A DNA stretch of 32,894 nucleotides from Candidatus Sumerlaeota bacterium (lineage in GTDB: Bacteria; Sumerlaeota; Sumerlaeia; JADFCW01), in assembly GCA_017161705.1 (NCBI GenBank), contig JADFCW010000040.1, forward strand, positions 1-32,894, given 5' to 3'. Below the pieces are notes generated by a model. It ran no database searches. It was not told where the DNA came from and saw only the letters and a program-made list of their open reading frames with translations. Positions 2,834 through 5,701 of this stretch are shown here, in pieces; the stretch's first letter is position 1, and every line of letters begins with the position of its first letter. Made by a program: the position numbers and the translations under genes.

Positions 2834-4381
2834 TCAATGCGTCATGGCATACACCAGCACATTGACGCCGAGACGGAGGGCAAGGTCAGGGTCTACGGCG
2901 GCGATCATCGGGCGCGGTTCGTTTTCCCAGCCGCCGCTCAACGAAACGGGACTATAGACAACGCACGTATAGCCCTGGCGGGTTAGGCCGAGCAGTGTGG
3001 GCCTGGCAGGGGTGAAACCTGCGGCCGCGCCGGAAGGCGACATCTCTTCCAGATGAATCGGCGTATGGGCGGAGAAAATCGGATGATCGGGGGGCAATTC
3101 GTCGAGGTCTTCGGCGGGAAAGAGCTTCTTGAGTTCGCGGCGGACCGCGCGGTCGAAGTCGCGCCGGTCGCAGCAGTTGTGAACGAATAGAAATCCGCCG
3201 CCGTCGAGGTAGCGCCGCAGGTTCTCCCGCGCCTGATCCGACAGCGTAAAATCCAAATGCCCCGTGAGATACGCAAAAGGAAAGTGGAAGAGTTGGGGCG
3301 AGTCGGCCTCGACACCGACGCATTTATAGGTCGGCTGGCCGCTGGTCGAAAGGGCAAACGCCTTCATCAGATTGCTGACGCCGGTGGGATGGGGCGACCA
3401 ATCGCCGGCGTGCTTGATTTGGGCGATTTCGACATCGCCCGGTGTTTCGCTGTCGGGTGCGAACACTTTGACGATGCTTTGGGTCCGGCCCAGACGATAG
3501 TAGGCAAGACAATAAGCCAGAAGATTGACGCCGAACCGTCGCGCGTCGGCAATGTCAATGCGCTCGCCGAAGTCATGCGTGTGGCCGTCCCAGCCGCATG
3601 CAACGTCGGCGGGAGAGAAAATGACGGCGGTGCGGCAGCCGACATTGACGCCATAGACTGTTGGAAAGCGGTTCTCAAATTTGTCGGCGCCGATCTTGTG
3701 CCGGAGATTGCCCAGCTGGAAATGGCTGTGAAAGAGCGGATGCTCGGGCGGCAGCCGATGCCAGGGGCAGTCGGGGAATATCGCCTGAAATTCTTTTTTG
3801 AACGACTCTGTGAACGAGGGTTTTCCACTGCTGGAGTTGCCGAAGACATAGCCGCCGGCCAGAATATAGTTGCGGATTAGGTTGCGTTCGAGGGCAGTGA
3901 GTTCGAACCCTTCCTGTCCGGAAAAATAAATCATCGGCGTGCGGTCGGGCGAATAGTTGAACTCGTTCAGTCGCATGACCTCGGCCTTGTAGTTGGCTAC
4001 CTCGCCGAGTTCGCGACGGGCATAGTCGAACAGCCCCTGCGTGTCGCCCATGGCCGTTGTCCATTTGTATTGGCGGACCTTGCGGCCCTCCTGCTCGACC
4101 AGGTCGAGAATGCCGTAGTTGATCTTGGCCATGAGCGTGGGCGGAGCGGGCGGTTTCTTCCGCTCGGTGCGGCGAAGCGGGGTCACGGGCAGAGGCAGGG
4201 GCGGCAATCCTTCAGCGCCTTTGATGCGCTGCGGCGAAGCCTTCGGCGGCGGCGAGCAGGAAATTTGCGCCTGAACCCTGCACACAGCGGCCGCCAGCAT
4301 GGTTCCTGCAAGTGCGGCGAGAACACATGCGGAAAGTTGCCGCTTCAACCGCGCCATGCCTTTTATCCCAAAAAGATTCAT
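2834..4381 (-). CDS. Secreted protein with two tandem DUF4159 domains
   Basis: The product is 515 aa with an N-terminal signal peptide (SACVLAALAGTMLAAAV, near residues 17-33). Two related DUF4159 modules follow. The first, about residues 80-290, has KINYGILD, MIYFSGQEGFELT and GGYVFGNSSSG. The second, about 310-515, has FPFAYLTGHLDFTLS and GGGFLFVHNCCD. The shared pattern is 'predicted strand, F/Y-x-x-G-H/Q, then a glycine-rich turn plus a residue-poor helix', consistent with an internal duplication. DUF4159 proteins have no assigned reaction; they occur in diderm bacteria of the PVC type, often near MoxR/DUF58 loci, which are absent here. The start is uncertain: ATG 4381 has AAAGGG only 2-3 bases away and ATG 4357 has AAAAGG one base away. 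TTGACA at 4436-4441 (minus) is a possible -35 element. Confidence 0.75.
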   Translation of the reverse strand: MNLFGIKGMARLKRQLSACVLAALAGTMLAAAVCRVQAQISCSPPPKASPQRIKGAEGLPPLPLPVTPLRRTERKKPPAPPTLMAKINYGILDLVEQEGRKVRQYKWTTAMGDTQGLFDYARRELGEVANYKAEVMRLNEFNYSPDRTPMIYFSGQEGFELTALERNLIRNYILAGGYVFGNSSSGKPSFTESFKKEFQAIFPDCPWHRLPPEHPLFHSHFQLGNLRHKIGADKFENRFPTVYGVNVGCRTAVIFSPADVACGWDGHTHDFGERIDIADARRFGVNLLAYCLAYYRLGRTQSIVKVFAPDSETPGDVEIAQIKHAGDWSPHPTGVSNLMKAFALSTSGQPTYKCVGVEADSPQLFHFPFAYLTGHLDFTLSDQARENLRRYLDGGGFLFVHNCCDRRDFDRAVRRELKKLFPAEDLDELPPDHPIFSAHTPIHLEEMSPSGAAAGFTPARPTLLGLTRQGYTCVVYSPVSLSGGWENEPRPMIAAVDPDLALRLGVNVLVYAMTH

Positions 4382-4545
4382 AGCCCTTTACCGCTTCGCT
4401 TATCCGATTGCCAGTTCACAGCAAAACGGCCGCAATGTCAAGCTCGACAGCTATGAAAAAGCCGCGAACCGCGGATGGACAGAGATGCACACAGATTTCA
4501 AAGACACATTGCCAATAATCTAACGCGGCTTATGGTTAGAATCAT

Positions 4546-4784
4546 AAGATCTTCGCTAGAGGGCTCGATCTCGGGATGAATGATTCCAGGGCGGCCGAAA
4601 AAGTCAGGGCAATCGGTTGCCGCGCGATGAATGAGAACTGCAAAGCGGCAGCATGGCTGCCGCACTCCAAAATTTCCGCCCCTGATGCTGCAAGGCGGAA
4701 TGCTTTTGCTTTGGACTGCGGCAGCCATGCTGCCGCTTTCGGCCGACAAGTTTCGACGCACCGAACGCGGCCCGCGGCCACAAC
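4546..4784 (-). repeat. Dispersed repeat family A, copy 2 (intact)
   Basis: Inverted relative to copy 1 at 1-240. It contains two 19-base palindromes, at 4645-4663 and 4718-4736, each a GCGGCAGC / GCTGCCGC stem around three bases. The two copies together bracket the DUF6807, Gfo/Idh and DUF4159 genes. Intact stems here against decayed stems in copy 1 suggest that this copy is younger or under selection. Confidence 0.85.
4642..4739. repeat. 98-bp element with 30-bp terminal inverted repeats (core of repeat A)
   Basis: Positions 4642-4671 and 4710-4739 are reverse complements of each other at 29 of 30 positions, separated by 38 bases. Each arm is itself a hairpin (GCGGCAGC-ATG-GCTGCCGC). The single strand can therefore form either one long stem or two side-by-side hairpins, the layout of REP/BIME or MITE-like elements. 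No transposase is encoded within it. Confidence 0.85.
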
Positions 4785-4960
4785 CAAATATAAGGGCGCC
4801 ACCAAGATGCGCACATTTTGGCTAGATCTTTAGATGAAAGAGTCCATAGATTCAGCGAAATCTGTGAAACCACTATGTCTGCAACAAGATTGGAAAATAC
4901 GAGGGGCTTTTATCGAAACCTAGGAAAGTTTGTGTTCGCTTGATCCCGGCGGGTGCAGGC

Positions 4961-5701
4961 TTATTCTCGTCCTGTCTGCACAGAATCGCTGGAGTCGGAC
5001 CGCTGCGCCGGGCGGGCTCCTCCCATGATCTTCTTGTGAATCCATACATAGACCGCCACCAGAGCCGCCAGTGCAAGGATCATCCAGAGCAGGTTCTCAT
5101 GGATGATTTGCTTGCCCTCGAAAATCAAATCCCGATAGGATTTGCCGACCGACGCCCGCCCCAGGCCGTACCCGATGAACGTCAGAACGGAGACCCAGAA
5201 TCCTGCGCCGAGCGCCGTGAACAGCGAGAATCGGAAGATGTTCATCCGCGACAGTCCCGCCGGCAGCGAGATCAGCTGCCGGATGGCCGGCAAAAGGCGG
5301 CATACAAATGTCGTGATCTCGCCGTATTCGCGGAACAGCGCCTCGGCCCGCTCCAGATGCGCCGGCTTGAGAAAGAGGTACTTTGCATAGCGATAGAGAA
5401 ACGGACGCCCCAGCCACAATGCCAAATAGTAATTGATATAAGCGCCCGCCATCGAACCGGCCAGACCGGTCAGAATGGCGACGCACAAACCGATTCCGAC
5501 TGCTTCGCCGCCAATAAACTCATGGCGCGCAATCATCACGCCCGCGGGAATCATCACCACTTCGCTGGGAAAAGGAATAAACGAACTTTCGATTGCCATA
5601 AAGAGAAAAATCAGCACGGGCCCCCATACGCGTGCAATTTCCACGGCCGCTTCCACATACGTCGCAAGAGTCTCCAGCACAGATGCTGCTCCTTGCCCCA
5701 T
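4961..5701 (-). CDS. DedA family integral membrane protein
   Basis: The product is 246 aa, normal for the family. Visible signatures are the ESSFIPFPSE re-entrant segment near residues 38-47, the glycine-rich GSMAGAYINYYLALWLG helix near 81-98, and RLLPAIRQLISLPAGLSRMN near 138-157 with the conserved arginines and PAG. Further hydrophobic helices follow, with a last one near 212-230. DedA proteins act in the inner membrane and are linked to undecaprenyl-phosphate or phospholipid translocation; the cargo of this member is unknown. It lies 30 bases after jag on the same strand, so it is probably the last gene of the rpmH-yidC operon. No Shine-Dalgarno is visible before the ATG, in line with translation following jag. 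Confidence 0.88.
   Translation of the reverse strand: MGQGAASVLETLATYVEAAVEIARVWGPVLIFLFMAIESSFIPFPSEVVMIPAGVMIARHEFIGGEAVGIGLCVAILTGLAGSMAGAYINYYLALWLGRPFLYRYAKYLFLKPAHLERAEALFREYGEITTFVCRLLPAIRQLISLPAGLSRMNIFRFSLFTALGAGFWVSVLTFIGYGLGRASVGKSYRDLIFEGKQIIHENLLWMILALAALVAVYVWIHKKIMGGARPAQRSDSSDSVQTGRE

Follow-up and report, generated by a model that had tools for sequence, protein, structure and literature searches.

REPs are usually explained by an adjacent RAYT. The described systems closest to the repeat analysed here are the REPINs and BIMEs, for which the relevant part of the published account (PMC3116915) gives pairs of inverted hairpins set apart by a spacer, high copy number, extragenic placement, singlets beside doublets and tandem clusters that include flanking DNA. 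Two tagged superfamilies are treated in the pertinent sections of PMC3733652, namely the GTAG REPs, which are palindromes with one unpaired tagged foot (GT[AG]G), dimers, clusters, several stem variants and a flanking transposase, and the CGTC-tagged REPs, reported there without a dedicated transposase. For class 3 Y1 proteins, the corresponding part of PMC6006769 describes atypical hairpins with a CnGA foot that flank their gene and reach high copy number, in Planctomycetes as well as in other phyla.

Here we describe a hairpin unit, H, from Candidatus Sumerlaeota bacterium; the window is the whole contig stretch analysed, 32,894 nucleotides long. H is a dispersed 30-nt hairpin with a compensated stem and a predominantly extragenic location, within the 20-40 nt of REPs and BIMEs in the broad sense, and inverted doublets at near-fixed spacing are its common form, as in REPINs. 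On the account in PMC3116915, it shares with them the spacer, the high copy number, the singlets beside doublets and the expansions that carry flanking DNA along, but differs in its tag (TTTGGASTGC), in having no RAYT alongside, in the opposite dimer polarity of a sister species and in being embedded in a larger mosaic. Measured against the description in PMC3733652, H resembles the GTAG REPs in its palindrome with one tagged foot, its dimers, clusters and stem variants, but lacks both the GT[AG]G foot and the flanking transposase, whereas the CGTC REPs are a precedent for tagged REPs lacking a dedicated transposase, with a different tag. The foot of H, GAST / AAA, is neither GT[AG]G nor CGTC; over four bases it reads GAST on one strand and CAAA/GAAA-like on the other, as compared with CnGA for the class 3 hairpins of PMC6006769, and H, unlike those, does not flank a Y1 gene. 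Judged by its foot, H falls outside the published GTAG and CGTC superfamilies.

The hairpin unit H and its composite

The first-pass annotation had described a 98-bp palindromic element with 30-bp terminal inverted repeats and a 19-base palindrome inside each arm, able to form one long stem or two hairpins, and this description was borne out. The arms are reverse-complementary at 29/30 positions (97%) with 38 nt between them, and within each arm 19 nt pair as a stem of 8 bp around a 3-nt loop. In DNA folding, the 98-mer forms a single long stem (-44.8 kcal/mol, z -9.6, 0/200 shuffles equally stable), while each arm alone forms its own hairpin (-10.9 and -11.0 kcal/mol, beyond all 200 shuffles). 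The palindrome consists of two inverted copies of the 30-nt unit H, AAA-GCGGCAGC-ATG-GCTGCCGC-ANTCCAAA, the flanks of which are fixed, with TTTGGASTGC at one foot and TTT at the other. When up to 3 mismatches are allowed, the 19-mer occurs 6 times in the window, where 0.07 would be expected, and four of these occurrences are the two arms, each counted on both strands; an Rfam search of the window gave no match. The one mismatch between the arms is systematic and not decay, as ACTCC in one arm faces AGTCC in the other in 37 of the 43 adjacent +/- pairs of the genome.

As the extent of the element, 98 bp proved too short, since the similarity between copies runs well beyond the palindrome and 32 genome copies align over approximately 330 bp, in the order A-M1-H1-SP-H2-M2-A' (Table 1). 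The annotation had also pointed to a further, decayed copy in the window; this copy is real, 87% identical to the first, with the layout kept and the stems damaged.

Table 1. Features of the repeat in the window.
Feature	Position	Strand	Basis
Whole composite, A-M1-H1-SP-H2-M2-A'	4520..4848	+	32-copy alignment; ends from consensus, to within a few bases
Module A, beginning with a small GC-rich hairpin	4520..4586	+	32-copy alignment; A-end search
Linker M1	4587..4641	+	32-copy alignment; BLAST among A-end loci
H, first copy, AAA end outward	4642..4671	+	arm comparison, genome matches, folding
Spacer SP between hairpins	4672..4709	+	32-copy alignment; BLAST among A-end loci
H, second copy, inverted	4710..4739	-	arm comparison, genome matches, folding
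Linker M2	4740..4761	+	32-copy alignment; BLAST among A-end loci
Module A', diverged direct repeat of A	4762..4848	+	32-copy alignment; A and A' match each other (BLAST)
Second composite copy (core 47-143), cut by contig end, L122	1..268	-	genome search and BLAST

So that copies were not picked by their hairpins, the A end alone was used as query, with the best 40 of 124 candidates scored and 30 loci taken. Among these, 21 carry A, two H and A', 4 have A' but only one H, one (L111) has a run of four H and lacks A', two (L114, L124) are partial and two are cut by a contig end. Over the 27 measurable loci, identity to the consensus is 94.7% for H1 and 93.5% for H2 (24 copies each, with more than 80% of the segment aligned) and 80-87% for the other modules, the value of A being biased upward because A was the search query. 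Within H1, the stem is 97.4% and the loop 81.9% identical to the consensus.

The whole composite recurs with different flanks, as would be seen if it were a MITE with a DDE transposase recognising its ends. We consider this very unlikely, as inspection of the alignment by eye recognised neither a terminal inverted repeat nor a constant short target-site duplication at the ends of the composite, and H occurs outside the composite too; the empty spacers of the sister species are too diverged for exact junctions. In two forward frames, most of the composite consensus is open, and it might accordingly encode a small protein; the chance of this seems negligible, given that 25/30 copies no longer keep the consensus frame, that stops interrupt every one of the six frames in 17-29 of 30 copies and that substitutions outside the arms have no three-base rhythm (0.13/0.16/0.16). 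Just outside the composite, a AACCGCGGATGGACAGAGATGCACACAGATTTC stretch at 4462-4498 has a partial inverse of its end (GCGAAATCTGTG) at 4853-4868 and is possibly another repeat.

Abundance, dimer polarity and distribution

The first-pass annotation proposed a spread, REP/BIME-like palindromic repeat with decayed copies, and held that a single pair of copies, or arms without compensatory changes, would speak against this. Allowing 3 mismatches at most, the 27-nt arm pattern matches the 4.67-Mb genome 306 times (reversed control 0), and a strict pattern with free stem gives 207 exact matches in this genome and 178 in Ca. Sumerlaeia SKW40, another species of the same genus, with no match in the controls; high copy number and inverted dimers agree with the proposal. 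A search with the 98-bp palindrome gave at least 101 matches from the best 40 of 207 candidates, the reverse-strand self-matches of the arms included. Six of the 40 genomes in a sweep of the phylum contain the strict pattern, only the two genomes of this genus being rich in H, and blastn found H as a single copy in other genera as well (G012, G013, G025, G039); 16S was found in 3/8 genomes and was not used for placement.

Of 64 neighbouring H pairs in the genome of the window, 43 are inverted in +/- orientation with the AAA ends outward, and 30 of these 43 lie at one of two start-to-start distances (20 at 69 bp, 10 at 79 bp); the dimer count includes three -/+ "pairs" at distance 3, each being one palindrome read twice, and may still include a few overlapping loci twice. 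The two spacing classes are one helical turn apart. In SKW40, 50/63 neighbouring pairs are inverted in -/+ orientation with the TTTGGA ends outward (46/50 at 105-112 bp) and none has the polarity of the first genome, so that the two sister species use opposite dimer polarity. The SKW40 kind is also seen in a few dimers of the first genome, where the spacer is conserved (L245, L246, L248), and the pattern listing contains nine such pairs in a Lac Pavin genome (87-92 bp) and five in a Hydrogenedentota genome (96-103 bp).

H has also been expanded in tandem, with four units at a 51-bp period (L251) and with three at 43 plus two at 47 bp (L250), flanking bases being copied along. A further locus (L252, G000:C9:7900-8600) has the arrangement X-H-X-H-X immediately upstream of a possible start codon, X being a host sequence of 36 bp. 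Three X do not result when one unit is simply duplicated in tandem, and the flank may have been duplicated when H inserted or in the course of repair.

Exact copies of the 27-mer arm occupy 56 stretches of the genome collection, 48 of them in SKW40, two each in Hydrogenedentota and Planctomycetota, and one each in Verrucomicrobia, an unclassified Lac Pavin bacterium, Anaerolineae and a BRC1 genome. With the stem left free, H was counted 19 times in Hydrogenedentota, 32 in the Lac Pavin bacterium, 17 in Planctomycetota, 3 in Verrucomicrobia, 3 in BRC1 and 2 in Anaerolineae, and never in the controls. A stray contig is unlikely for the Anaerolineae copies because the record is a MAG titled chromosome (4.7 Mb), while in the other draft genomes H could stem from one. 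Among 247 elements chosen without any requirement on the inner stem pairs, there are seven distinct fully complementary stems (GGCA/TGCC, GGGA/TCCC, GCAA/TTGC, TGGA/TCCA, GGTA/TACC, GGTG/CACC and GGCG/CGCC), the first of which accounts for 202 elements. Watson-Crick pairing reaches 78% over the 23 distinct stem pairs, as against a mean of 62% and a maximum of 75% in 2000 shuffles; compensatory changes are thus present between genomes.

No record in the plasmid and phage sets searched matches the 98-mer. A complete H on the minus strand of the IMG/VR viral contig IMGVR_UViG_3300017934_000140 (L311 3135-3164) is the only pattern match in that collection. A text search of a set of papers found no match for the 19-mer, one unrelated match for six shorter H strings and two unrelated papers on palindromic repeats and Sumerlaeota.

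Y1 genes and genomic placement

The first-pass annotation had suggested processing by a RAYT, had recommended looking for a RAYT or Tnp_Y1 gene and had counted the lack of an associated transposase against its reading. We searched for Y1_Tnp (PF01797) in this and seven other H-bearing genomes and scanned all 45 places found for H. The genome of the window contains one match, a 150-aa protein (L009, 1405-1857, minus strand), and SKW40 likewise has one Y1 gene (L159). The first is flanked (1170-1390, 1849-2281) not by H but by units of 72 bp in which there are two hairpins, GCCTTTCAGGC and GGGGCGTTGCCCC, and the second by a similar GGGCGTTGCCC hairpin; the hairpins beside the Y1 genes of this genus appear to be a second, separate REP-like family. 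Across the eight genomes, H lies within about 1.5 kb of only one Y1 locus, a Planctomycetota RAYT with an H-type hairpin cluster about 100 bp past the 3' end of the gene (L170). Relatives of this RAYT were sought in 392 Planctomycetota genomes and are present in 231, and none of the 29 further loci read has H, three of them (L284, L286, L306) giving loose matches without the full tag. The scan also covered two extra stretches, one of which (L280) was chosen for its H, about 3.4 kb from a Y1 place. When the 2666 open frames that lie no more than 1.5 kb from H were all compared with one another, a set to which Anaerolineae contributed no frames and from which clusters confined to this genome and SKW40 were left out, no gene cluster beside H was found in more than 3 of 11 genome groups.

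The idea that H is a canonical REP/REPIN moved at present by a Y1 transposase that these genomes encode, whether or not H flanks it, draws on its REPIN-like structure and arrangement, on the one Y1 gene kept by each species of the genus and on the Planctomycetota cluster. It nevertheless seems unlikely, given that a RAYT gene flanked by the same REP was seen at 1/45 Y1 loci and 0/29 relatives, that hairpin repeats of other kinds surround the Y1 genes of the genus and that H has no GTAG-type foot. A PF01797 gene is present in the genome and not linked to H, and the suggested processing by a RAYT was not borne out.

With crude ORF calls, 37 of 45 sites in the genome of the window lie between long ORFs (11 divergent, 21 co-directional, 5 convergent), as do 33 of 37 sites in SKW40 (7, 19 and 7, respectively), and neither set shows a preference for gene 3' ends. 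The element in the window is flanked by DUF4159 and VTT-domain genes, the spacer between which measures 569 bp here and 123 bp in SKW40, with both sides aligning at 86-87% and neither H nor composite in the SKW40 spacer. Four sites of the first genome, alignable on both sides to SKW40 DNA, were compared, a sample that is not random because most SKW40 loci were chosen for carrying H. At two of them (the window and L019), the composite is absent from SKW40, which could reflect loss in SKW40; at another (L106), SKW40 has different H elements at the same place. At the fourth (L262/L312), a single H upstream of a conserved ORF is common to both species and 30/30 identical within an 84% alignment, so that single copies may be kept for use. 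In a separate comparison (L148 1500 and L040 892), a single H directly follows the T-run of a terminator-like hairpin, and SKW40 has the hairpin without an intact H. The left flanks of several H are T-rich.

These comparisons also bear on whether H is mainly a functional hairpin kept by selection, be it a terminator, an mRNA-stabilising hairpin or a protein-binding site. The identical single H upstream of the same gene would agree with this, as would the short T-run that follows the stem on one strand and the higher conservation of H relative to its linkers. We regard it as quite improbable as the main role, since H shows no gene 3'-end preference, the arms are not among the terminators reported in a scan of 4380-5000 and composites are missing from two orthologous SKW40 spacers. 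A GC hairpin with a U-run at gene 3' ends, as expected of intrinsic terminators, was not the pattern found; a terminator role for single H is possible, favoured neither by placement nor by scan.

A model for spread and its implications

The repeat is BIME/REPIN-like by structure and behaviour, and RAYT mobilisation is not supported. We consider it probable that H is a non-autonomous BIME/REPIN-like repeat whose tag forms a new class, and that it was spread by a single-strand nuclease which either acts in trans or has been lost. The multiplying unit would be an inverted pair of H with a near-fixed spacer, in which the stem may change freely as long as it stays complementary while the flanks remain fixed. 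The hairpins, their compensated stems, the dimers, the copy number and the presence in one species with absence from its sister are observed; from these we infer movement as single strands, with an HUH (Y1-type) nuclease that would recognise the hairpin in single-stranded DNA. In the genome of the window, the H pair would have joined a larger mosaic with A modules and spread as composites of about 330 bp, local tandem expansion following by slippage or recombination.

Several findings stand against this model of a trans-acting or lost nuclease. No transposase gene is linked to H, and its tag is unlike that of both published REP superfamilies. An IS200/IS605-type reaction is not known to make a host duplication such as the 36-bp repeat around H at L252. 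In addition, the identical H common to both species would also fit selection for a cellular function, and at two of the four comparable sites both species have H, the elements being different ones at one of the two.

An identical 27-mer is common to Sumerlaeota, Hydrogenedentota, Planctomycetota, Verrucomicrobia and Anaerolineae. We put forward, as a tentative and somewhat doubtful extension, that H might represent a third tagged REP superfamily (TTTGGASTGC) that crosses several phyla, owes its movement to an agent other than a neighbouring Y1 transposase and multiplies in both dimer polarities, as seen in two species of one genus. How REPs spread without a resident transposase is the question posed by a REP class that is abundant in distant phyla, bears another tag and has no RAYT beside it, and the opposite dimer polarity of two congeneric genomes makes this question testable.
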